DNA of 11,217 nucleotides from contig CACZTC010000031.1 of NCBI GenBank assembly GCA_902784015.1, positions 1-11,217 of the forward strand, written 5' to 3'. The translations under genes and the position numbers were made by a program. The notes below the pieces were generated by a model. That model was given only the letters and a program-made list of their open reading frames with translations, was not told the DNA's origin and made no database searches. Positions 172-8,639 of the stretch are shown piece by piece (the stretch's first letter is position 1; every line of letters starts with the position of its first letter). Origin of the DNA: an uncultured Erysipelotrichaceae bacterium. Lineage in GTDB: Bacteria > Bacillota_I > Bacilli_A > Erysipelotrichales > Erysipelotrichaceae.

Positions 172-603
172 TTAATCTTTTATTAATTTATCAAGCGCTA
201 CTAAATAACCTTTAGCTCCTAAACCTATTACTCTATCAAAACATGCTTCACTAATATAAGATAGCTTCCTAAATACATCGCGTTCATTAATATCACTTAA
301 ATGCACTTCGATAACAGGAAGAGGACTAATCGCTTTTATTGCATCTAATAAAGCAATACTTGTATGCGTATAAGCTCCAGGATTAATGATAATACCATCA
401 TATTTTTCAAAATAAGCTTCCTGTATCCAATCAACTAAATCACCTTCGTGATTAGATTGCCTACATATTACTTCAATATCTTTTTCTTTCGCATATTCTT
501 CAATCATATTAATAATCGAAGAATAAGATATATCGCCATAAATATTCTTTTCTCTGATTCCTACCATATTAAGGTTAGGGCCATTAATAACTAATATCTT
601 CAT
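172..603 (-). CDS. aroQ: Type II 3-dehydroquinate dehydratase
   Basis: Dehydrates 3-dehydroquinate to 3-dehydroshikimate, the third shikimate pathway step, in the cytosol; type II enzymes are usually dodecamers. The 143 residues match the usual length of about 145. The opening MKILVINGPNLN, the flexible catalytic loop with R17 and Y22 (IREKNIYG), the QSNHEGDL segment (49-56), NPGAYTHTS (74-82, with N74 and H80) and EVHLSDINERDVFR (99-112, with H101, R108 and R112) are the standard active-site blocks, all present. The stop codon of tyrA lies 2 nt upstream of the ATG, and an AAGG ribosome site sits inside the tyrA end. It is the last pathway gene of the operon. The gene name must not be confused with the AroQ class of chorismate mutases, which is unrelated. 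Confidence 0.96.
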   Translation of the reverse strand: MKILVINGPNLNMVGIREKNIYGDISYSSIINMIEEYAKEKDIEVICRQSNHEGDLVDWIQEAYFEKYDGIIINPGAYTHTSIALLDAIKAISPLPVIEVHLSDINERDVFRKLSYISEACFDRVIGLGAKGYLVALDKLIKD

Positions 604-605
604 CT

Positions 606-1460
606 TTATACCTTCTTTTTCTCAAAAGCTTTTCTTCTTTCAGTAGAAGTTATTAATTTTTCTTTTATACTGGCGAAATCTTCATTAGCTAAAAGATCTC
701 TAAATTCTTTCATTTCATCAGTAAAATTATCTATTTCTTTAATAAGATTATCTTTATTCATGATAAATAATTCTGGCCATAAATCTTCATTGATACGCGC
801 AATCCTAGTTAAATCTCTAAAGCTATCACCTGTATATTCTGCTAAATGTGAATTATCTTTTACATTCATTAAAGATACCGCAATAACATGTGTTAATTGG
901 GATAAGAATCCTATCATTAAATCATGTTCTTCCGCACTTAATTCAGCTATATTATTAAACTTTAATATTTTCGCAATATCATTAGCTACTTCTAAGCCTC
1001 TTTCTGTATTCTTTTCTGTTGGCACAATAATAAAATTAGCTACTTCAAATAGATGAGGATCTGCATATTGGATACCTTTAAATTCTCTACCTGCCATAGG
1101 ATGGCACGCAATGAATTCAACATCCTCTCTTAATATTCCATTAATCTCAGCCATCACTTCTTTTTTTATACCGGTAACATCAGTGAGAATACTATTAGGT
1201 TTTAATAGATGTTGATTCTCTTTTATCCAATTAATAAATGTTTGTGGATATAAAGCAGATATGACAATATCACTATCTTTAACTAGATTTACATCATCCC
1301 CACCTTCCACTATCCAATTCAATCTTTTTGCGAATGCGATAGCTTCTTCATCAATATCAATTCCCGTTATTTTATAACCTGCATGTGATAAGCCTTTCGC
1401 ATAGCTACCACCTAATAAACCTAAACCAATTATAGTTATTTTAGAACCTCTCGATATCAT
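606..1460 (-). CDS. tyrA: Prephenate dehydrogenase (monofunctional, no ACT domain)
   Basis: Oxidative decarboxylation of prephenate to 4-hydroxyphenylpyruvate, the branch step toward tyrosine, normally NAD-dependent. An N-terminal Rossmann fold shows GLGLLGGS at 12-19. The substrate region carries DVTGIKK (94-100), HPMAGRE (120-126, catalytic His120), the helical SQLTH (187-191) and GDSFRDLTRIA (211-221). At 284 residues the protein ends soon after the dimerisation helices. It has neither the C-terminal ACT domain seen in longer Bacillus-type TyrA nor an N-terminal chorismate mutase. Feedback control on the protein by tyrosine is therefore less obvious, leaving operon-level control more important (inference). 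The start is supported by AGGAG at 1474-1470, 9 nt before the ATG. The first 20 nt overlap the end of aroA, pointing to coupled translation. An arogenate-using variant cannot be excluded by eye. Confidence 0.94.
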   Translation of the reverse strand: MISRGSKITIIGLGLLGGSYAKGLSHAGYKITGIDIDEEAIAFAKRLNWIVEGGDDVNLVKDSDIVISALYPQTFINWIKENQHLLKPNSILTDVTGIKKEVMAEINGILREDVEFIACHPMAGREFKGIQYADPHLFEVANFIIVPTEKNTERGLEVANDIAKILKFNNIAELSAEEHDLMIGFLSQLTHVIAVSLMNVKDNSHLAEYTGDSFRDLTRIARINEDLWPELFIMNKDNLIKEIDNFTDEMKEFRDLLANEDFASIKEKLITSTERRKAFEKKKV

Positions 1461-2715
1461 ATATATTCACTCCTATCTTTTCTAAATCCTCAAAGAAGCG
1501 AGGATAGCTTTTATTAATTGCTTCAGTGCCATTAATGATTATTGCGTCTTCATTACCACTAGCTAATATAGCTAGAGCCATGACGATACGATGATCATTA
1601 TGTCCATCTAATTCCATATTATTAGTAATATTACTTTCTTTAATAATTACTTCATCTTCACTACTTTCAATGGCGATATTTAATTTTTTCAATTCTTCTT
1701 CCATCGCTTGAATGCGATCGCTTTCTTTTATTCTTAAGCGCTTCACATTCTTAAAAATACTTTTACCCATAGCCTTAGTAGCTAACACAAATAAGATTGG
1801 GCCTAAATCAGGATTATCTTTTAGATCTATTTCTTTTCCTACTAGATAACTAGGATAAAAAGTATAACCTTCTTTATTCTCTTCAATTATCATATTCATA
1901 CTTCTTAAGATATCTATGATGGCATGATCTCCTTGAATAGAATCATGTTCCATATTAATTATCTTAATTGGCTTATTGATTATTTGAGCTAAACACGCAA
2001 AGAAGGCAGCTTGTGAATCGTCCGCTGGTATATTAGCTTCAAAAGCTTGATATCTTTGATTACCTTTTATATATAGAATATTATCTTCTTCTTTTATTTC
2101 TATACCTGCTTTATTTAAAGTGGCTATAGTTAAATCTATATAAGATTTAGATTCAATAGGCTCAATTATTTCTATTTCACTATCTTCTTCTAATAAAGGT
2201 AAAGTGAATAATAAGCCGGTAATAAATTGTGAAGATATATTACCTGGTACTATATAATGAGCACTTTTTAATTTACCTTTAACTATTAATTTATCTTCAT
2301 ATAAATCAAATAATAGTCCTTGTTTATGATATATATTCTCATATATATCTAAAGGTCTTTTTAATAATCTACCATGGGCTGTAAATATTATTTCTTCATC
2401 ACTTAAAGATAATAAAGGAATAAGGAATCTTAAAGTTGAGCCTGATTCATTACAGAAGATATTATTATCTATTAATTTAATATTTCCATTAATACCATGA
2501 ATAATTAAATCTTCATTAATCTTTTCATAAGTAATTCCTATTTTTTTTAAAGCTTCTAATGTCGCTTTGATATCTTCATTTTCTTCATAATTATGAAGAA
2601 TACTTTTACCATTAGCTAAAGCAGCACAAATCAAAAAGCGATGCGCTATAGATTTACTACAAGGCACTTTTACTTCTTGATTCTTTATTACTCCTTTACT
2701 AATAGCTTTTATCAT
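1441..2715 (-). CDS. aroA: 3-phosphoshikimate 1-carboxyvinyltransferase (EPSP synthase)
   Basis: Condenses shikimate-3-phosphate with PEP to give 5-enolpyruvylshikimate-3-phosphate. The 424 residues match the family length of about 430 for the two-domain inside-out barrel. Visible active-site blocks are VPCSKSIAHR (17-26, with K21, S22 and R26), the PEP loop NESGSTLR (89-96), SSQFITG (161-167), DDSQAAFF (232-239), the aspartate segment DNPDLGP (300-306), RIKESDR (328-334) and DGHNDHR (370-376). The PEP loop reads ESGSTLR rather than the NAGTAMR of the enterobacterial class I enzyme. That variant is, to my knowledge, common in clostridial relatives; I draw no conclusion about glyphosate sensitivity. 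The ATG overlaps the aroF stop by one base (TAATG), and the gene overlaps tyrA by 20 nt, so it sits in a coupled operon. Confidence 0.96.
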   Translation of the reverse strand: MIKAISKGVIKNQEVKVPCSKSIAHRFLICAALANGKSILHNYEENEDIKATLEALKKIGITYEKINEDLIIHGINGNIKLIDNNIFCNESGSTLRFLIPLLSLSDEEIIFTAHGRLLKRPLDIYENIYHKQGLLFDLYEDKLIVKGKLKSAHYIVPGNISSQFITGLLFTLPLLEEDSEIEIIEPIESKSYIDLTIATLNKAGIEIKEEDNILYIKGNQRYQAFEANIPADDSQAAFFACLAQIINKPIKIINMEHDSIQGDHAIIDILRSMNMIIEENKEGYTFYPSYLVGKEIDLKDNPDLGPILFVLATKAMGKSIFKNVKRLRIKESDRIQAMEEELKKLNIAIESSEDEVIIKESNITNNMELDGHNDHRIVMALAILASGNEDAIIINGTEAINKSYPRFFEDLEKIGVNIYDIERF

Positions 2716-3731
2716 TAGAGACTTCTTCCTACTGCTTCCGCAACTATTTTTCCTTTTCTAATTAATTCTTTGAATTTTTCTGGCTTTAGGGCTTGTGCGC
2801 CATCGCTCCATGCTTTATCTGGACAATCATGAACTTCAATAATCAAGCCATCCGCTCCAGCTGCAATTGCAGCTAAAGACATTGGCTCAATTAATTTCCA
2901 GTCCCCAGTTGCATGACTTGGGTCAATTATAATAGGTAAATGTGTCTTCTCTTTAATAATAGGAATAACTGCTAAATCCATTGTATTACGTGTATATTTT
3001 TCGAAAGTTCGAATACCTCTTTCACACATTATGACATTAGGATTACCTGCAGCCATAATATATTCAGCTGACATAATCCAATCTTCGATAGTAGCTGACA
3101 TACCACGCTTTAATAATACTGGTTTATTAATATGCCCAACTGCTCTTAATAAATCAAAATTCTGCATATTACGAGCACCAATTTGAACTAAATCAACATG
3201 TTCCACAAATTCATCAACCTTATCAGCACTCATCACTTCACTTACTATCGGCATACCAGTTTTCTCTCTAGCTTCAACCATATCCAATAAACCTTGATAA
3301 CCTAAGCCTTGAAAAGAATAAGGAGAAGTACGTGGTTTATAAGCTCCGCCTCTTATCATATCAGCGCCACAATCTTTAACTTCTTCAGCTATTCTACAGA
3401 TTTGTTCACTACCTTCTACTGAACAAGGTCCACCAATGATAACGATCTTCTCATTACCACCAACTTTAATACCTGCCACATCCACAATCGTATCTTCAGG
3501 ATGGAACATACGATTTGATAATTTATATGGAGCTGATACACGTTGAACATTCTCTACCCATTCATTGGCTAAGATATCACGGTCAGATATTTGTGAAGTA
3601 TCTCCAACTAAGCCAAAGACATTAAAGTTATCACCTTGAATAATATTTACATGCACACCTTTTTCTTCAAAATCGTTATATAACCTATCCACTTCACTTT
3701 GTGGTGCTTCTTTTTTTAATGTAATAATCAT
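2715..3731 (-). CDS. aroF: 3-deoxy-7-phosphoheptulonate (DAHP) synthase, type I-beta with N-terminal regulatory domain
   Basis: Catalyses the first committed step, PEP plus erythrose-4-phosphate to DAHP, on a metal-dependent TIM barrel. At 338 residues it has the same length and layout as the Thermotoga maritima enzyme. A ferredoxin-like N-terminal domain (about 1-66) precedes the barrel, which contains GGPCSVE (100-106, metal Cys103), KPRTSPYSFQG (132-142), KRG (208-210), DPSHATG (270-276, His273), Glu299 and Asp310. In that family the N-terminal domain closes over the barrel when tyrosine or phenylalanine binds, so the enzyme is probably feedback-inhibited by the same two amino acids that the upstream leader seems to sense (inference). 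It lacks the chorismate mutase domain fused to the Bacillus homologue. It starts with a 4-nt overlap with aroE-aroK (ATGA), after a GTAGGAG ribosome site. The symbol could equally be written aroG. Confidence 0.95.
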   Translation of the reverse strand: MIITLKKEAPQSEVDRLYNDFEEKGVHVNIIQGDNFNVFGLVGDTSQISDRDILANEWVENVQRVSAPYKLSNRMFHPEDTIVDVAGIKVGGNEKIVIIGGPCSVEGSEQICRIAEEVKDCGADMIRGGAYKPRTSPYSFQGLGYQGLLDMVEAREKTGMPIVSEVMSADKVDEFVEHVDLVQIGARNMQNFDLLRAVGHINKPVLLKRGMSATIEDWIMSAEYIMAAGNPNVIMCERGIRTFEKYTRNTMDLAVIPIIKEKTHLPIIIDPSHATGDWKLIEPMSLAAIAAGADGLIIEVHDCPDKAWSDGAQALKPEKFKELIRKGKIVAEAVGRSL

Positions 3732-4972
3732 AATTTTTCTCCTACCTTTTCTATTATTTCATTAGTTATATCTTCGATATTACCTTCATTTATAATTCTA
3801 ATATCTGCATATCTTTCATATAAACTATAACGCTCTTCATATAATCTATATAAATCTTCTTTATTCATTGATAATGGTCTATCTTCGCTAGGAAATAAAT
3901 CTTCTTTATTCCTATCAATCCATATCGTTATACTATTTTTGCTAAGATAACGCATTACTTCTTCATCTTTAATTACTCCGCCTCCGCTTGCGATAATCAA
4001 GCCTCTTTCATTAGCCAAGCTTTGCGCAACCTCTTTTTCTTTTTCTCTAAAATAAGCTTCGCCATATTTATTAAAACATTCGCTTATTTTCATGCTGATT
4101 GCTTCTTCAACTAATATATCCATATCAATAGCTTTTAAATTAGTCTTTTCTGAAATTAATTTAGCTATTGTTGATTTACCAGAAGTAGGCATACCTATTA
4201 ATAGAATATTGGCATGTTTATATAATTCCTCTATATAACACTTTTCAACCTTAGACCAATCTATTTCTTTATCTAAGAAGATCTCTTCTGCATAGCCTGC
4301 TTGATATACTAACATCCTTAAGCCACCATAAGTTTTAATACCTCTACATTTAGCTTCAAACATTAATTTAGTATTTAAAGGATTCGCGATAATATCTATC
4401 ACCCCTAATAATTCACTGAATTTATCTAAATCAATATTAGGCATAACTTCTGTATTAGGATATAAACCAAGAGGTGTCGTATTTACAATATATGCATATT
4501 CATTAGCTTTTTCATTTAATTCTTCATATGTTATTTTTTCTTCATTTTTATATCTTGATATTATATCTACTTTAGCGCCTTTTGAATCTAAAGCATATTT
4601 ACAAGCCTTAGCGCCTCCCCCGCTTCCAAGTATCGCTACTTTTTTATCTTTAACATCAAGCTTATAAAAATCTAATAATCTATTAAAGCCAAGATAGTCA
4701 GTATTATATCCTTTGAGTTTTCCTTCTTTATTAACGATACAATTAATAGCTTGAATATCATTAATCTCTTCAGATATTTCATCTAAATAATCTATGACTG
4801 TTTCTTTATAAGGTATTGTTACATTGATGCCATCGAAGTTTTTCTCTTTCATGAAATTATCTAAGTCTTCTTGAGCTATTTCATACATTTGATAATCTAT
4901 GCCCATTAGATAATTATGGATATCTTTGGAATAACTATGACCTAAAGGATAACCTAATAAGCCTAATTTCAT
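3728..4972 (-). CDS. aroEK: Fused shikimate dehydrogenase - shikimate kinase
   Basis: One 414-residue frame carries two consecutive pathway enzymes. Residues 1 to about 235 are AroE, reducing 3-dehydroshikimate to shikimate: the substrate loop GHSYSKD (11-17), TIPYKE with catalytic Lys56, GYNTD (88-92, Asp92), the NADP-binding GSGGGAK (116-122), NTTPLG (164-169) and the closing VYQAGYAEE (222-230, Gln224). Residues from about 254 to the end are AroK, phosphorylating shikimate: a P-loop GMPTSGKST (260-268), DMD (283-285), FRE (308-310, Arg309), GGG (330-332), lid EDRPL (363-367) and EERY (379-382). The linker (about 236-253) is short and charged. No in-frame start with its own ribosome site was seen at the junction, so the fusion appears real rather than two overlapping genes. 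It starts in a 4-nt overlap with aroC, preceded by GAGGAAATC. Confidence 0.94.
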   Translation of the reverse strand: MKLGLLGYPLGHSYSKDIHNYLMGIDYQMYEIAQEDLDNFMKEKNFDGINVTIPYKETVIDYLDEISEEINDIQAINCIVNKEGKLKGYNTDYLGFNRLLDFYKLDVKDKKVAILGSGGGAKACKYALDSKGAKVDIISRYKNEEKITYEELNEKANEYAYIVNTTPLGLYPNTEVMPNIDLDKFSELLGVIDIIANPLNTKLMFEAKCRGIKTYGGLRMLVYQAGYAEEIFLDKEIDWSKVEKCYIEELYKHANILLIGMPTSGKSTIAKLISEKTNLKAIDMDILVEEAISMKISECFNKYGEAYFREKEKEVAQSLANERGLIIASGGGVIKDEEVMRYLSKNSITIWIDRNKEDLFPSEDRPLSMNKEDLYRLYEERYSLYERYADIRIINEGNIEDITNEIIEKVGEKL

Positions 4973-6051
4973 AACTGATTTCCTCGATGTTCTTTTAAAA
5001 GATCCAATAATACTAAAGCGATAATACTATCTATAACTACTCTAGCTCTATGTACAATACAAGGATCATGCCTTCCCGCTATTTGTAGCTCACACTCTTC
5101 CATCTTATCTAAGTTAACACTATTTTGAATCTTAGAAATTGAAGGAGTAGGTTTAATAGCTGTTTTAATGATGATAGGCATACCATTACTGATACCTCCT
5201 TGTATCCCCCCGCTATTATTACTCTTAGTCTTCACTTTATTATCAACAATAATAAATTCATCATTAACTTCTGAACCATATTTATCGCACATCTCAAAGC
5301 CGCCACCAAATTCAATTCCTTTAACAGAAGGGATACTGAAGATTGCTTTAGCTAATAGACCTTCTAAAGTATCAAAGAAAGGTTCACCTATTCCTACTTC
5401 CAAGCCTATAATAGCTGTCTCTAAGATGCCGCCAACTGAATCGCCATTATCTTTAGCTATTTCTATTTCTTTTAAGATTTTATCTTTTTTATCTTCTTCT
5501 AAAATTGCTATATCTATTTCATTTACTTTATCAATATCTTTTTCTATATCAACAAAATCCCTATCTTCTATGCCATGTACTTTTTTAAGATGAGTTCCTA
5601 TCTTAATACCTTTTTCTTTTAATAATTGCATGGCTAGAGCCCCGCAGGCAACAAGTGGAGCAGTTAAGCGACCACTAAAATGTCCACCTCCACTTTTATC
5701 TTCATAGCCACCATATTTAATATGTGCTACATAATCAGCATGTGATGGTCGAGGAATATTCTCTAACTTTTCATAATCTTTTTTGCGCACATTATTATTT
5801 TTTATTAATAATGTGATAGGACTACCTTCACTAATTCCAGCTTTAATACCACTAATGAATTCAACTTTATCTTCTTCATTTCTTGGAGTTGATATCTTAC
5901 CTATAGCTTTACGTTTATTCATTTGTTTTTCAAGATAATCAAAATCAATTTTAATGCCACTAGGAAAGCCATCTAAACAAGCTCCAACATAAGCTCCATG
6001 TGATTCTCCAAATAATGTCACTGTTATATTTTTACCTAATATATTACTCAT
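4969..6051 (-). CDS. aroC: Chorismate synthase
   Basis: Converts EPSP to chorismate by anti-1,4 elimination, using reduced FMN as cofactor. The chosen product is 360 residues, normal for the family (about 360-390). Conserved blocks are GESHG (15-19, His18), RPSHADY (101-107, His104), KSGGGHFSGR (119-128), the GDSVGG flavin/substrate loop, NNSGGIQGGISNG near residue 278, and GRHDP with the following helix at the C terminus. I start at 6051 because AGGAG at 6064-6060 lies 8 nt upstream, and the product then begins MSNILGKNITVTLFGESHG as expected. An in-frame ATG at 6072 would add seven residues but has no ribosome site. The chosen start overlaps the end of aroB by 8 nt, and the stop overlaps aroE-aroK by 4 nt. 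Confidence 0.95.
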   Translation of the reverse strand: MSNILGKNITVTLFGESHGAYVGACLDGFPSGIKIDFDYLEKQMNKRKAIGKISTPRNEEDKVEFISGIKAGISEGSPITLLIKNNNVRKKDYEKLENIPRPSHADYVAHIKYGGYEDKSGGGHFSGRLTAPLVACGALAMQLLKEKGIKIGTHLKKVHGIEDRDFVDIEKDIDKVNEIDIAILEEDKKDKILKEIEIAKDNGDSVGGILETAIIGLEVGIGEPFFDTLEGLLAKAIFSIPSVKGIEFGGGFEMCDKYGSEVNDEFIIVDNKVKTKSNNSGGIQGGISNGMPIIIKTAIKPTPSISKIQNSVNLDKMEECELQIAGRHDPCIVHRARVVIDSIIALVLLDLLKEHRGNQL

Positions 6052-7048
6052 ATATTTTTCTCCTGAAGTCATCTATTGACCAATCTTCTAAATGTGCTTC
6101 TCCTATCTTATCAACCTGTACGATTGTTATTTTATTATGATCTGCTTTTTTATCTTTCTTAATTAATTCAATTATTCTCTCTTTATCTACTTCGCAAGAT
6201 ACTGGTAAACCCATCTTCTCTAATATATTAATTAATCTATCTTTTATATCTTTATTATTAAGAATACTAACCATACCCATACCTACACATTCCCCATGTA
6301 GATATCTATCTAATTCAAAATAAGATTCATAAGCATGACCTATCGTATGGCCAAAATTCAATAATTTTCTTTCCCCTTTTTCTCTTTCATCATTCTCAAC
6401 TATTTCTTTTTTTATTTTTAAGCTTTTAATAATAATCTCTTCTAAATAATCTAAATAATTATCTTTTTCAAATAATTCAAATAGACTCTCATCTTTTATT
6501 AAGCCTGCCTTAATAGCTTCAACTAAACCATTATGGAAATTCCTTCTATCTAAAGTATTTAATGTATCTAAATCAATAAGTACACATGAAGGCTGCCAAA
6601 AAGATCCTACACAATTCTTATTACCATCAACATCAATCGCTGTCTTACCACCAATTGAAGAATCTATTTGCGATAGGGTTGTAGTTGGAATATTAATATA
6701 TTCAATACCACGCATATATGTTGAAGCTGCAAAACCTGCTAAATCTCCTATCACACCGCCACCAAGGGCTATAACCAAATCATTTCTAGACATATTATTA
6801 TCTAACATGACTTTATGTATTCTTTCTAACATCTCATATGATTTACTTCCTTCACCTTTTGGTAGAACTAATAAATCTCTTCTTTTTAATTTATTTAATA
6901 AAATATCTTTATATTCCTGAGGCACTCCTTCATCACTAATAATTAAAACAAATCTATCGCCACCGATATAATCTTCTACTTTATTTAGTATTCCTCTTTC
7001 TACAATAATTGGATAATTTTTATCTTTTGTGTTTACTATCATTTCCAT
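6044..7048 (-). CDS. aroB: 3-dehydroquinate synthase
   Basis: Cyclises DAHP to 3-dehydroquinate, using NAD and a divalent metal. From the chosen start the product is 334 residues; relatives have about 350. Motifs are the NAD-binding ALGGGVIGDLAGFAAS (94-109), PTTTLSQIDSSIGGKT (121-136), GNKNCVGSFWQP (142-153), GLVEAIKAGLI (174-184, metal ligand Glu177), NFGHTIGHAYE (231-241, His234) and HGECVGMGM (251-259, His251). It is the first structural gene after the leader region. The start at 7048 is chosen because AAGGTG (7060-7055) precedes it by 6 nt. An in-frame ATG at 7072 lies inside the 3' arm of the leader terminator hairpin and lacks a ribosome site, so the longer form is unlikely. A further ATG at 7042 would remove only two residues. 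Confidence 0.95.
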   Translation of the reverse strand: MEMIVNTKDKNYPIIVERGILNKVEDYIGGDRFVLIISDEGVPQEYKDILLNKLKRRDLLVLPKGEGSKSYEMLERIHKVMLDNNMSRNDLVIALGGGVIGDLAGFAASTYMRGIEYINIPTTTLSQIDSSIGGKTAIDVDGNKNCVGSFWQPSCVLIDLDTLNTLDRRNFHNGLVEAIKAGLIKDESLFELFEKDNYLDYLEEIIIKSLKIKKEIVENDEREKGERKLLNFGHTIGHAYESYFELDRYLHGECVGMGMVSILNNKDIKDRLINILEKMGLPVSCEVDKERIIELIKKDKKADHNKITIVQVDKIGEAHLEDWSIDDFRRKIYE

Positions 7049-7054
7049 AACATT

Positions 7055-7061
7055 CACCTTT
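7055..7061 (-). promoter_or_regulatory. Ribosome binding site that fixes the aroB start
   Basis: AAAGGTG on the minus strand lies 6 nt upstream of the ATG at 7048-7046. It begins within a few bases of the U-tract of the leader hairpin. It is therefore transcribed only if RNA polymerase passes that hairpin, and it selects the downstream ATG over the one at 7072. Confidence 0.75.
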
Positions 7062-7093
7062 ATAAAAGCCATATGGCATATCCCATATGGCTT
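7062..7093 (-). terminator. Leader intrinsic terminator (attenuator hairpin) ahead of aroB
   Basis: On the minus strand AAGCCATATG (7093-7084) pairs perfectly with CATATGGCTT (7075-7066) around an 8-nt loop. If the last two A-U pairs are left open, the 8-bp GCCATATG/CATATGGC stem is followed by UUUUAUA. The uridine tract is short, so termination is probably moderate. It sits between the leader peptide and aroB rather than at an operon end, as expected for an attenuator. It can be displaced by an alternative pairing described under the leader region. A role limited to translation or RNA stability is a possible alternative. Confidence 0.72.
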
Positions 7094-7161
7094 AGATTAC
7101 TATTATTCCATATTAGATAATGCCAAAGTATAAAATGGGCAATTATCTAATCTTGCCCTCA

Positions 7162-7203
7162 CTATCTAAAATAAAAGTAATAAAATAAATTGGCCTTTTT
7201 CAT
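7162..7203 (-). CDS. aro operon leader peptide MKKANLFYYFYFR
   Basis: A 13-codon frame ATG...TAG on the minus strand encodes M-K-K-A-N-L-F-Y-Y-F-Y-F-R. Codons 7-12 (7185-7168) are all Phe or Tyr (TTT TAT TAC TTT TAT TTT), an arrangement very unlikely by chance directly before an aromatic biosynthesis operon. It parallels the known Phe-rich pheA and Trp-containing trpE leader peptides of enteric bacteria. The stop codon is 3 nt upstream of the first pairing segment, so a terminating ribosome would cover that segment. There is no Trp codon, so the operon appears tuned to Phe and Tyr only. The nearest Shine-Dalgarno-like sequence, GAGGTG (7223-7218), is 14 nt away and lies upstream of the predicted transcription start, so initiation may be leaderless. 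The peptide itself probably has no function once made. Confidence 0.85.
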   Translation of the reverse strand: MKKANLFYYFYFR

Positions 7204-7210
7204 TACAAGA

Positions 7211-7239
7211 ATAATAACACCTCAATTAATTGTTTTCAA
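7211..7239 (-). promoter_or_regulatory. Extended -10 promoter for the leader and aroB operon
   Basis: TTGAAA (7239-7234) and TATTAT (7216-7211) are separated by exactly 17 nt. A TGT triplet directly before the -10 makes it an extended -10 (TGnTATTAT). The start of transcription is expected about 7 nt downstream, at 7204 or 7203, which coincides with the A of the leader ATG. A perfect 10-nt palindrome CAATTAATTG (7232-7223) fills much of the spacer and could be an operator, although such short AT-rich palindromes also occur by chance. The promoter lies just past the pheA stop codon, so aroB and the genes after it can be transcribed independently of pheA. Confidence 0.75.
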
Positions 7240-7248
7240 CTGCTTTGT

Positions 7249-8082
7249 TTATGAAGCATTATTATTGAAGGCTTCATAATTGCCTAATATTTTTGATTCT
7301 AGACAATGTAATTCTATTTCTTTCAAGACTTCTTTCATTTCCCTATTAGAAACATTACCCTCAAAATCAATATAAAACATATATTCAAAGACTTTATTAG
7401 GGATAGGTCTAGATTCTAATTTCAAGATATTAATACCCGACTTTGATAAGATACCTAATAAATTATATAGAGCACCTGGCCTATGTTTTAATACTAAAAC
7501 CATTGATATCTTATTAGCTTTTTTATTTTCAATAATATCTTTAGTTATAACTAAGAATCTTGTCATATTGACTTCAGAATCCTGTATTTCTTCTAATAAG
7601 CTTTCTAAACCATAATATTCTCTAGCTAAATAACTCCCAAAAGCAGCTTTACTTTTATCATTACAATTCTTAATATATTCCACGCTTTTAGCTGTATCCT
7701 GATATGGGATAGCTTTAATATTAGGATGCTTATCTAAGAAATCTTGACACTGTGATAAAGCTTCAGGATGACTATATACTTCTTTAATATCTTCTATCTT
7801 AGTTCCTGGCACTACAATTAAATCTTCTTTAATCGGAATATTTATTTCACCTATCGCATAAATATCATTATCTTTAAAAAGATCATAAGATCTTGCGATA
7901 ATACCTGTTGTTGTATTTTCAACAGGCAAAATAGCATAATCTAAATCACCATTAACTACAGCATCAATAATATCTTTAAAATTTGTATAGCCTATTCTTT
8001 CTATTTCTTCATCTTTAAAATATTTAACTGCTGCTATTTCACTAAATGTTCCATTATTTCCTTGATATCCTACTTTTTTCAT
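7249..8082 (-). CDS. pheA: Prephenate dehydratase with ACT regulatory domain
   Basis: Decarboxylates and dehydrates prephenate to phenylpyruvate, the branch step toward phenylalanine. The 277 residues show the catalytic domain at about 1-180, with GYQGNNGTFSE (5-15), LPVENTTTG (52-60), SHPEALSQC (104-112) and the diagnostic TRFLVI (174-179). An ACT domain follows at about 190-268, with HRPGALYNLLGIL (200-212) and the Phe-binding ESRP (223-226), so allosteric inhibition by phenylalanine is expected. No chorismate mutase domain is present, unlike the enteric P-protein. The start is preceded by AAGGTGG 3-4 nt upstream. It has its own promoter in the divergent intergenic gap and no evident terminator before the leader promoter. 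Some pheA transcripts may therefore read into the aro leader and meet the same attenuator. Confidence 0.96.
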   Translation of the reverse strand: MKKVGYQGNNGTFSEIAAVKYFKDEEIERIGYTNFKDIIDAVVNGDLDYAILPVENTTTGIIARSYDLFKDNDIYAIGEINIPIKEDLIVVPGTKIEDIKEVYSHPEALSQCQDFLDKHPNIKAIPYQDTAKSVEYIKNCNDKSKAAFGSYLAREYYGLESLLEEIQDSEVNMTRFLVITKDIIENKKANKISMVLVLKHRPGALYNLLGILSKSGINILKLESRPIPNKVFEYMFYIDFEGNVSNREMKEVLKEIELHCLESKILGNYEAFNNNAS

Positions 8083-8096
8083 AAACCACCTTGACT

Positions 8097-8105
8097 TGGT
8101 ATAAT
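8097..8105 (+). promoter_or_regulatory. Extended -10 promoter of the plus-strand gene pair
   Basis: TGGTATAAT is a perfect extended -10 element (TGn plus consensus TATAAT at 8100-8105). The -35 region 17 nt upstream (TTTCAT, 8077-8082) is poor, which an extended -10 can compensate. The expected transcription start, 7 nt downstream of the hexamer, is 8112, exactly the A of the first ATG of the membrane protein gene. It overlaps the pheA promoter on the other strand, so polymerases for the two directions should compete for this stretch. Confidence 0.6.
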
Positions 8106-8132
8106 TCTATTATGCTTAAAATATTTCTTCAA
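8104..8132 (-). promoter_or_regulatory. pheA: pheA promoter
   Basis: On the minus strand TTGAAG (8132-8127) is followed after 17 nt by TAGAAT (8109-8104). The predicted start near 8097 gives a 5' leader of about 15 nt containing the AAGGTGG ribosome site. That leaves no room for an attenuator, so pheA seems not to share the leader control of aroB. The -10 overlaps by two bases the -10 of the opposing plus-strand promoter, and the -35 lies inside the coding region of the divergent gene. Confidence 0.55.
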
Positions 8133-8639
8133 CATAAACTAAGCTTCTTTATTGGCTGTATCTTAATACCTTTTATTCTTTTATTCTCTTTATTTTATTT
8201 TAAAGATGATAATATTACTTCTTTATTAATGCATAAAGGCCTATATGCATATATCATAGCTTTACTATTATTAGCTTGGCTCATCTTTTTATTAATAAAA
8301 GAAGGTAAAAATATCTTGAAGATTTATGATTATATAATTCTCATTATTTTAATAACTATCCCCTTATTATTACCTTATACTAGCGAAGAAGCTATCAATA
8401 CTAATTTACATATTTTATTATCTTACACAGCTTTATTATTCTTAAATATTCTTTTATATAAGCTTCATTATCATAAAAGCAATTATCGCAATATCTATAC
8501 TATGATATCTTTATTTTGTATATTTCATTGTATTTTAAATATGCGTATTACAATGTTGGCGGAAATAATATATGCTTGTGCGATAAGCATCTTATTAACT
8601 TTAATATATATAGGAGAAACAAATGAAAAGAATAATTGA
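8112..8639 (+). CDS. Six-helix membrane protein of unknown function
   Basis: I do not recognise this 175-residue protein. It is strongly hydrophobic with about six predicted membrane helices near residues 11-29, 43-62, 73-88, 99-116, 128-144 and 150-168. The loops are short, with lysine/aspartate at 31-33 and 63-70, histidine/lysine at 117-122 and a charged tail NEKNN. There is no cleavable signal peptide, transporter motif or enzyme motif visible. I start at the ATG at 8112 because an extended -10 promoter places the transcription start on it. An in-frame TTG at 8091 lies inside that promoter and has no ribosome site. The last 17 nt overlap the next gene, so the two are probably co-transcribed and may work together. 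The base composition matches the surroundings. Confidence 0.72.
   Translation: MLKIFLQHKLSFFIGCILIPFILLFSLFYFKDDNITSLLMHKGLYAYIIALLLLAWLIFLLIKEGKNILKIYDYIILIILITIPLLLPYTSEEAINTNLHILLSYTALLFLNILLYKLHYHKSNYRNIYTMISLFCIFHCILNMRITMLAEIIYACAISILLTLIYIGETNEKNN

Follow-up and report, generated by a model that had tools for sequence, protein, structure and literature searches.

Transcription attenuation mediated by a ribosome on a leader peptide is a known mode of gene control. In the trp and pheA leaders of Escherichia coli, transcription terminates when no ribosome is present, reads through when the ribosome is stalled, and terminates again when it has reached the stop codon; the pheL leader peptide carries Phe codons. 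The his attenuator of enteric bacteria consists of a relay of segments A to F, in which the ribosome-free pairing of A with B lets C take D. Histidine attenuators have been predicted in Erysipelotrichales, Peptostreptococcaceae, and the Bacillus cereus group (PMC9413887), and His leader peptides have been published in bacilli (PMC2965389). In Acholeplasma, aroF is preceded by the uORFC-13-1 motif, whose upstream ORF has Phe codon(s) (PMC8632094), and the trpL of Sinorhizobium meliloti is leaderless, its transcript starting at the ATG of the leader ORF (PMC7298713). For the 'trpB motif' (RF04312), its authors propose a riboswitch and leave a classic attenuator open (PMC11109978).

The locus analysed here belongs to an uncultured Erysipelotrichaceae bacterium (GCA_902784015.1, contig CACZTC010000031.1), and the whole stretch of 11,217 nucleotides is referred to as the window. 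Its leader, located between pheA and aroB, was considered a ribosome-mediated transcription attenuator sensing the supply of Phe and Tyr (charged tRNA), with a probability of about 0.88. The element is very probably real and is strongly conserved in relatives. It shares Phe codons with pheL, but instead of the targets of the E. coli trp and pheA leaders it would control the common shikimate pathway together with tyrA; the enteric his attenuator has His codons, his genes, and another phylum as host, whereas Phe/Tyr codons and other genes are found here. The His attenuators predicted in Firmicutes are comparable in being of the leader-peptide type, and some come from the same order, but with His codons and his genes. 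The uORFC-13-1 motif is comparable in having a Phe upstream ORF and a terminator before a shikimate gene in another low-GC lineage, and differs in genus and gene (Acholeplasma, aroF). The preliminary description had called such an attenuator unusual in low-GC Gram-positives, which is right in part, given the His leaders published for bacilli and Erysipelotrichales and the Phe upstream ORF in Acholeplasma. The element itself was not described in the literature searched, most of which lay outside subscription journals.

The attenuator would control an aroB-aroC-aroEK-aroF-aroA-tyrA-aroQ operon, whose genes we take, from their translations and without a family-library run, to be those named. The genes around the element were as follows.

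7249..8082, minus strand: pheA (prephenate dehydratase), just upstream of the attenuator, named from its translation
6044..7048, minus strand: aroB, which directly follows the attenuator, probable start ATG 7048-7046 (ORF list)
4969-6072, minus strand: aroC, ORF downstream of aroB
3728-4972, minus strand: aroE-aroK, shikimate dehydrogenase and shikimate kinase in apparently one fused ORF, named from its translation
2715-3731, minus strand: aroF/DAHP synthase, ORF
1441-2715, minus strand: aroA, ORF
606-1460, minus strand: tyrA, ORF
172-603, minus strand: aroQ, ORF

The leader consisted of the following features.

7211..7239, minus strand: predicted promoter, -35 TTGAAA (7239-7234), 17-bp spacer, extended -10 TG-T-TATTAT (hexamer 7216-7211)
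7162..7203, minus strand: leader ORF MKKANLFYYFYFR, ATG 7203-7201, stop TAG 7164-7162
7160..7169, minus strand: segment A, covering the 3' end of the leader ORF and its stop, 10 pairs with D (7122-7113)
7153..7158, minus strand: segment B, GGGCAA, pairing with TTGCCC (7142-7137) in C
7137..7151, minus strand: segment C, ATTAGATAATTGCCC, pairing with B or D
7107..7125, minus strand: segment D, the switch strand, with A, C, or the antiterminator site as partner
7074..7090, minus strand: antiterminator site, the 5' terminator arm and loop, pairing with D
7066..7093, minus strand: terminator hairpin, 11 perfect pairs (7093-7083 with 7076-7066), loop GATATG

The leader fold was stronger than 200/200 dinucleotide shuffles (z -3.45). 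Three pairings put forward in the preliminary description could be recovered from the sequence, namely B:C (6/6 pairs), C:D (7151-7138 with 7124-7112, 13 pairs and one bulge), and the pairing of D with the antiterminator site (7125-7108 with 7090-7074), which is present and imperfect. Its terminator hairpin also stood, but the arms that it gave, 7093-7084 and 7075-7066, stopped one base short at the inner end. It had missed the promoter position and the A:D helix (7169-7160 with 7122-7113), which encloses the B:C hairpin in the MFE structure of the window and appears in the consensus fold as well. Behind the terminator hairpin of the window lies a weak T tract, TTTTATAAA; positions 7067-7058 read TTTTATAAAG. 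A simple terminator scan scored no terminator in 6900-8200. A conserved short block is seen behind C (7136-7129, minus strand), which is GTTTCAT-like in general and ATTTTAT in the window, with two T columns invariant in 17 sequences; RNA polymerase might pause here, with the B:C hairpin setting the pause.

The distribution of the element was followed through the relatives of the window. Proteins resembling AroB were found in 48/60 of the relatives' genomes. Among 24 aroB loci fetched from the same genus, 23 reach upstream of aroB (L018, whose contig starts inside aroB, was set aside), and 17 of these 23, the window included, carry the element; in the other six, pheA abuts aroB and no element is present. 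Three of these six loci, followed upstream of pheA, contained neither a Phe/Tyr leader ORF of the type looked for nor an Rfam leader. A covariance model, R1, built from the 17 genus elements matched 31/70 genomes of the genus (30 seen before aroB and one at a contig end) and gave no match in 39/70, some genomes being incomplete. A 21-bit R1 match (E 0.086) upstream of pheA in an element-free locus, L202, was judged to be chance. In the order, R1 matched 51/294 genomes, reduced to 48/294 by a context check (30 of the genus and 18 of other genera), and all 48 lie within the family of the window, Erysipelotrichaceae; the matches in G166, G216, and G181 and second matches in G079 and G073 were rejected by context. 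Four of 395 genomes of the class were matched, all in the family, and six of 392 genomes of the phylum, five of them in the family; the sixth (G742/L211) was rejected because no aro genes were present in the 3,072 bases fetched. The order, class, and phylum samples have genomes in common, and filtering was strict in the large searches.

Context was read for 37 matches, of which 32 were accepted: 30 before aroB, L067 before aroF-tyrA, and L087 near a contig end. L079, L080, L081, L082, and L083 were rejected as false, with no aro genes in the fetched stretch. These five R1 matches and that in G742/L211 had E values of about 3e-4 to 1e-2, and L078 (E 2.7e-4), which precedes aroB, was kept. Together with the 17 genus loci, all of which precede aroB, the accepted matches make up 49 elements; 48/49 stand before genes for the same amino acids as those in the leader peptide, and one is at a contig end. 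A pheA match was present upstream in 16 of the 32 accepted loci, within the stretch fetched. Among named aroB loci, which partly come from the same genomes as the order, class, and phylum samples, 42/80 matched R1 at E 2.6e-5 or better, a count that leaves out the weak matches L154, L176, and L138 (E 0.024-0.059). Cultured carriers include Holdemania filiformis DSM 12042, Anaerorhabdus furcosa ATCC 25662, and Lactimicrobium massiliense, and H. massiliensis AP2 also carries the element; most other named matches were Erysipelotrichaceae metagenome assemblies, several of them Solobacterium sp. Searches with DNA patterns recovered just 8 to 22 of the 49 elements and were judged too unspecific.

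Phe/Tyr-rich leader ORFs with a different RNA were also noticed before aroB in other Erysipelotrichales (L134; L137, Traorella; L146, Merdibacter; L153, Longicatena; L155; L169; L180), most of them with a long hairpin near the stop codon followed by a terminator. Their consensus fold yields the terminator only, and they are possibly an independent attenuator design. In L130, L138, L143, and L176, a terminator-like hairpin before aroB occurs with fragments of the element and no evident Phe/Tyr leader ORF, perhaps as a decayed form.

The leader peptide was examined in the 49 elements and in a set of 41, from which the near-duplicates L016, L089, L094, L075, L077, L088, L097, and L100 were left out. 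In the window, six consecutive Phe/Tyr codons, already noted in the preliminary description and confirmed in the sequence, occupy codons 7-12 (7185-7168: TTT TAT TAC TTT TAT TTT), and are followed by an Arg codon, AGA (codon 13, 7167-7165), and the stop. An ATG leader ORF that has at least four F/Y residues and ends in the element was present in 49/49 elements, a count that is not independent, since at least four F/Y was a search condition of the leader ORF script. Phe or Tyr made up 278/691 leader-peptide residues, and Trp was absent from all 49 peptides. The run is specific to the reading frame: the F/Y share of codons -8 to -2 was 76% in frame versus 15% in either other frame (41 elements), and F/Y occurred at codons -7 to -2 in 32, 37, 36, 39, 29, and 36 of the 41. 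All four codons (TTT, TTC, TAT, and TAC) are in use, and F and Y exchange between elements. All 49 elements therefore have a short ORF that encodes a series of the pathway's end-product amino acids, and in the 41 the series is specific to the frame. The final two residues are FR or YR in 36/49 peptides, and B begins 1-3 nt past the stop codon in 35/41 elements.

Compensatory evolution of the pairings was evaluated by a swap test, in which the duplex energy of segment pairs within species was compared with that of species-permuted combinations (20,000 permutations). In the 41 elements, z values were -6.9 for A:D, -9.5 for B:C, -7.8 for C:D, -9.7 for D:EF (antiterminator), and -12.3 for E:F (terminator), and all five helices were at the p floor of the permutations. 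Control pairings gave p values of 0.65 (A:C), 0.23 (B:D), 0.14 (C:EF), 0.056 (A:EF), and 0.97 (B:EF). The same five pairings were at the floor (p 5e-5) in 16 genus elements (L016 left out), where the controls A:C, B:D, and C:EF gave p 0.13 to 0.85, and again at the floor in 15 elements of other genera, with three controls at p 0.10 to 0.47. Columns were counted on A4, an alignment of all 49 elements that was fitted to the tested structure; relatedness remains in both the swap test and the column counts. Over A:D, B:C, and E:F, 95.4% of the cells were paired, and both-side changes occurred in 19/24 modelled pairs, a value as high in 0/500 shuffles and far lower in slid versions. By helix, both sides had changed in 5/8 model pairs of A:D, 5/6 of B:C (47 distinct sequences), and 9/10 of the terminator. 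Smaller sets gave weaker column signals: for C:D in 17 rows, both-side change in 3/12 pairs was as high in 105/500 shuffles and the covariation score in 2/500, and for B:C in the genus set (16-17 sequences), both-side change in 2/6 pairs was as high in 187/500 shuffles. The D:antiterminator core, nearly invariant within the genus, displayed neither both-side changes nor column covariation in 17 rows. L076 has largely different letters in C, D, and the terminator, with the pairings kept (read by eye).

Because elements with other peptide ends keep the A:D pairs, A:D is, from sequence comparison, not just a by-product of coding FR-stop. Thirteen of the 49 elements lack the FR/YR end; four of them (YF) have nearly the same RNA sequence, read in a different frame, and the other nine reduce to six non-redundant elements (L013, L015, L074, L076, L085, and L099) with 7-11 A:D pairs. 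In five of these six, the element's own D was clearly the better partner of A (0-4/40 foreign D as strong), while in L013 it was not specific (17/40); the corresponding value for the window itself was 12/40. On alignment with related genomes, the check named in the preliminary description, the F/Y codon run and the alternate pairings were conserved and compensatory changes were found. Its claim of a Phe/Tyr ribosome-mediated attenuator with mutually exclusive segments thereby gains support: terminator and antiterminator exclude each other and bear the marks of compensatory evolution, with the D:antiterminator core (17 rows) lacking column covariation.

In the proposed mechanism, D would decide the outcome through its three exclusive partners. 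With no ribosome near, D would pair with A around the B:C hairpin and the terminator would form. A ribosome slowed in the Phe/Tyr run would cover A and leave B exposed, so that B:C forms and D is freed; D would then pair with the 5' arm and loop of the terminator, and RNA polymerase would read through. When Phe and Tyr are plentiful, a ribosome at the stop codon would cover A and B, and C, being freed, would pair with D, allowing the terminator to form. We infer that the ribosome stalls, that transcription terminates, how far the footprint extends, and what each state leads to, the last being modelled from folds. These suggest a truth table of terminate, terminate, and read through (ribosome absent, at the stop, and stalled), as in trp and his.

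For the folds, RNA under and upstream of the ribosome was removed, the A-site to +12 being counted as covered, an assumed footprint size; in most elements, B then lies under a ribosome that has reached the stop codon. In transcripts extending 8 nt into the 3' terminator arm (n=41), D was mainly on A in 27, on C in 3, and on the antiterminator site in 11 elements without a ribosome. These counts became 1, 9, and 31 with the A-site at -15; at -9, D was on C in 11 and on the antiterminator site in 30; and with the ribosome at the stop, on C in 39 and on the antiterminator site in 2. At full length without a ribosome, D was on A in 36, on C in 2, and on the antiterminator site in 3, with a mean of 9.1 expected terminator pairs; the antiterminator site was the main partner in 13-14/41 elements with the A-site at -15 to -9, and C was the partner in 41/41 at the stop. 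From these counts across ribosome positions, the antiterminator is most favoured with the ribosome within the Phe/Tyr run. A transcript of the window ending at +9 gave 14.6 expected antiterminator pairs with the A-site at -15 to -9 and 0.0 both without a ribosome and at the stop. The antiterminator pairing behind the readthrough that the preliminary description foresaw at a Phe/Tyr stall was thus favoured in partial transcripts but not in the full-length window, where the terminator wins in every state (at most 0.14 expected antiterminator pairs). With B:C enforced, the antiterminator won in 6/15, 7/16, and 7/16 elements at A-site -9, -12, and -15, and did not win in the window. Since the terminator is always favoured in the full-length window and only 13-14/41 full-length elements favour the antiterminator, antitermination would have to be kinetic, as it is in trp.

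Compared with the his attenuator, the stalled state (B:C with D:E) and the stop state (C:D with the terminator) correspond one to one, and both systems place a relay strand (C) between the ribosome and the antiterminator strand; in the swap test and the ribosome-position folds, these his-type states were found as pairings, not as function. The ribosome-free state differs: his has A:B, whereas in this leader the partner of A is D itself, with the B:C hairpin left intact between them, and no support was found for A:B in the swap test (p 0.076, mean -1.6 kcal/mol). The antiterminator strand of trp is covered directly by a ribosome that has reached the stop codon, while here such a ribosome would act through B and C. 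The topology is thus nearest to his, with a different ribosome-free pairing.

The ribosome-free state is where the main competing account departs. According to the preliminary description, transcription should read through when the leader is not translated, opposite to trp; this account, which keeps the attenuator and treats A:D as irrelevant, is unlikely and that claim was probably wrong, having overlooked A:D. In transcripts reaching 3-5 nt into the 3' arm, D lay on the antiterminator in 16/16 and 14/16 ribosome-free elements, and kinetic trapping could make such early pairing real. However, longer ribosome-free transcripts shift D to A (27/41, then 36/41), and A:D is conserved, covarying, and specific for its own D in five of the six elements with other peptide ends. 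The folds therefore make termination the likely ribosome-free outcome, but not a secure one, as the antiterminator leads in 10-16/16 elements in the short transcripts in every state, including the stop. Control of aroB translation in place of termination was regarded as quite improbable. The weak T tract of the window would fit it, as would the SD-like AAGGTG of aroB (7060-7055, minus strand) directly behind the terminator hairpin; but this site lies outside the hairpin, and among the last 8 aligned positions 6 or 7 are T in 25/41 elements, compared with 5 in the window.

Less probable still is a riboswitch, a leader that binds a metabolite or a protein and whose short ORF would be incidental. 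This reading takes its cue from RF04312, whose hairpin-then-terminator outline and AGAUA/UAUCU letters overlap with the element in the accessible part of its description (PMC11109978), where a leader ORF is not mentioned. The family matched the window (7057-7153, minus strand) with 30.2 bits and L049 with 34.4 bits, below its gathering cut-off of 59, and gave no match in 7/8 related loci scanned, and the F/Y reading frame is strongly conserved. No Rfam 15 family, riboswitches included, scored over its cut-off in the window. RF04312 itself is possibly worth checking for leader ORFs. Direct tRNA sensing by a T-box was the other candidate, as T-boxes occur in 40/40 relatives searched and stand upstream of aroB in several sister-family genomes; yet RF00230 had no match in the window at gathering score, nor in 7040-7245 at E up to 10, by which this reading is refuted and practically out of the question. 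The genome of the window has nine T-boxes, none of them in the window. In the sister family f2, a T-box precedes aroB in L029 (156-406) and L026 (193-435), 2/6 loci, the other four ending too early upstream of aroB, and a DAHP synthase-like frame lies between T-box and aroB in both (by eye). Among the matches listed, a T-box about 1.07 kb upstream of aroB was also present in G038, G043, G046, and G050. Because a T-box precedes the same genes in some sister-family members, control of the aro operon appears to have changed between sensing tRNA directly and sensing through the ribosome, which offers a natural comparison.

How the sensor ORF of the Phe/Tyr attenuator starts could be approached through its promoter, a prediction that matches the consensus at 10/12 positions plus the TG. 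In the window, 7 nt separate the end of the -10 from the leader ATG; the predicted start site falls on or next to the A of this ATG, so the leader mRNA would be leaderless. An SD-like GAGGTG lies upstream of the -10 and hence outside the predicted transcript; if transcription began further upstream, it would be in the transcript but 14 nt from the ATG. Promoter-like sites (score at least 11) were present 6-9 nt before the ATG 13 times among the 41 elements versus about 0.65 expected from mononucleotide shuffles, and a second cluster of 22 sites lies 15-25 nt before it. An anti-SD duplex of -5.6 kcal/mol or stronger precedes the ATG in 10/15 non-redundant elements of other genera. The leader ORF is thus predicted to be leaderless in the window and in about a third of the elements. 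The trpL of S. meliloti has the same leaderless start, but with Trp codons and in an alphaproteobacterium, and the start site here is a predicted one.

Few leader-peptide attenuators have been described in Firmicutes, and the element would extend their range to control of the common shikimate pathway by Phe and Tyr; its topology, A:D around B:C, differs from those of trp and his. As cultured carriers exist, it is directly testable. A wider proposal is tentative and rather doubtful, namely that a family-wide attenuator arose in Erysipelotrichaceae in which one strand with three partners reads the absent, stalled, and finished ribosome separately and the sensor ORF became leaderless in part of the lineage. 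If this were true, sensing would depend on leaderless (possibly 70S) initiation in addition to the supply of Phe and Tyr, and the switch would respond to the condition of the translation machinery as well.
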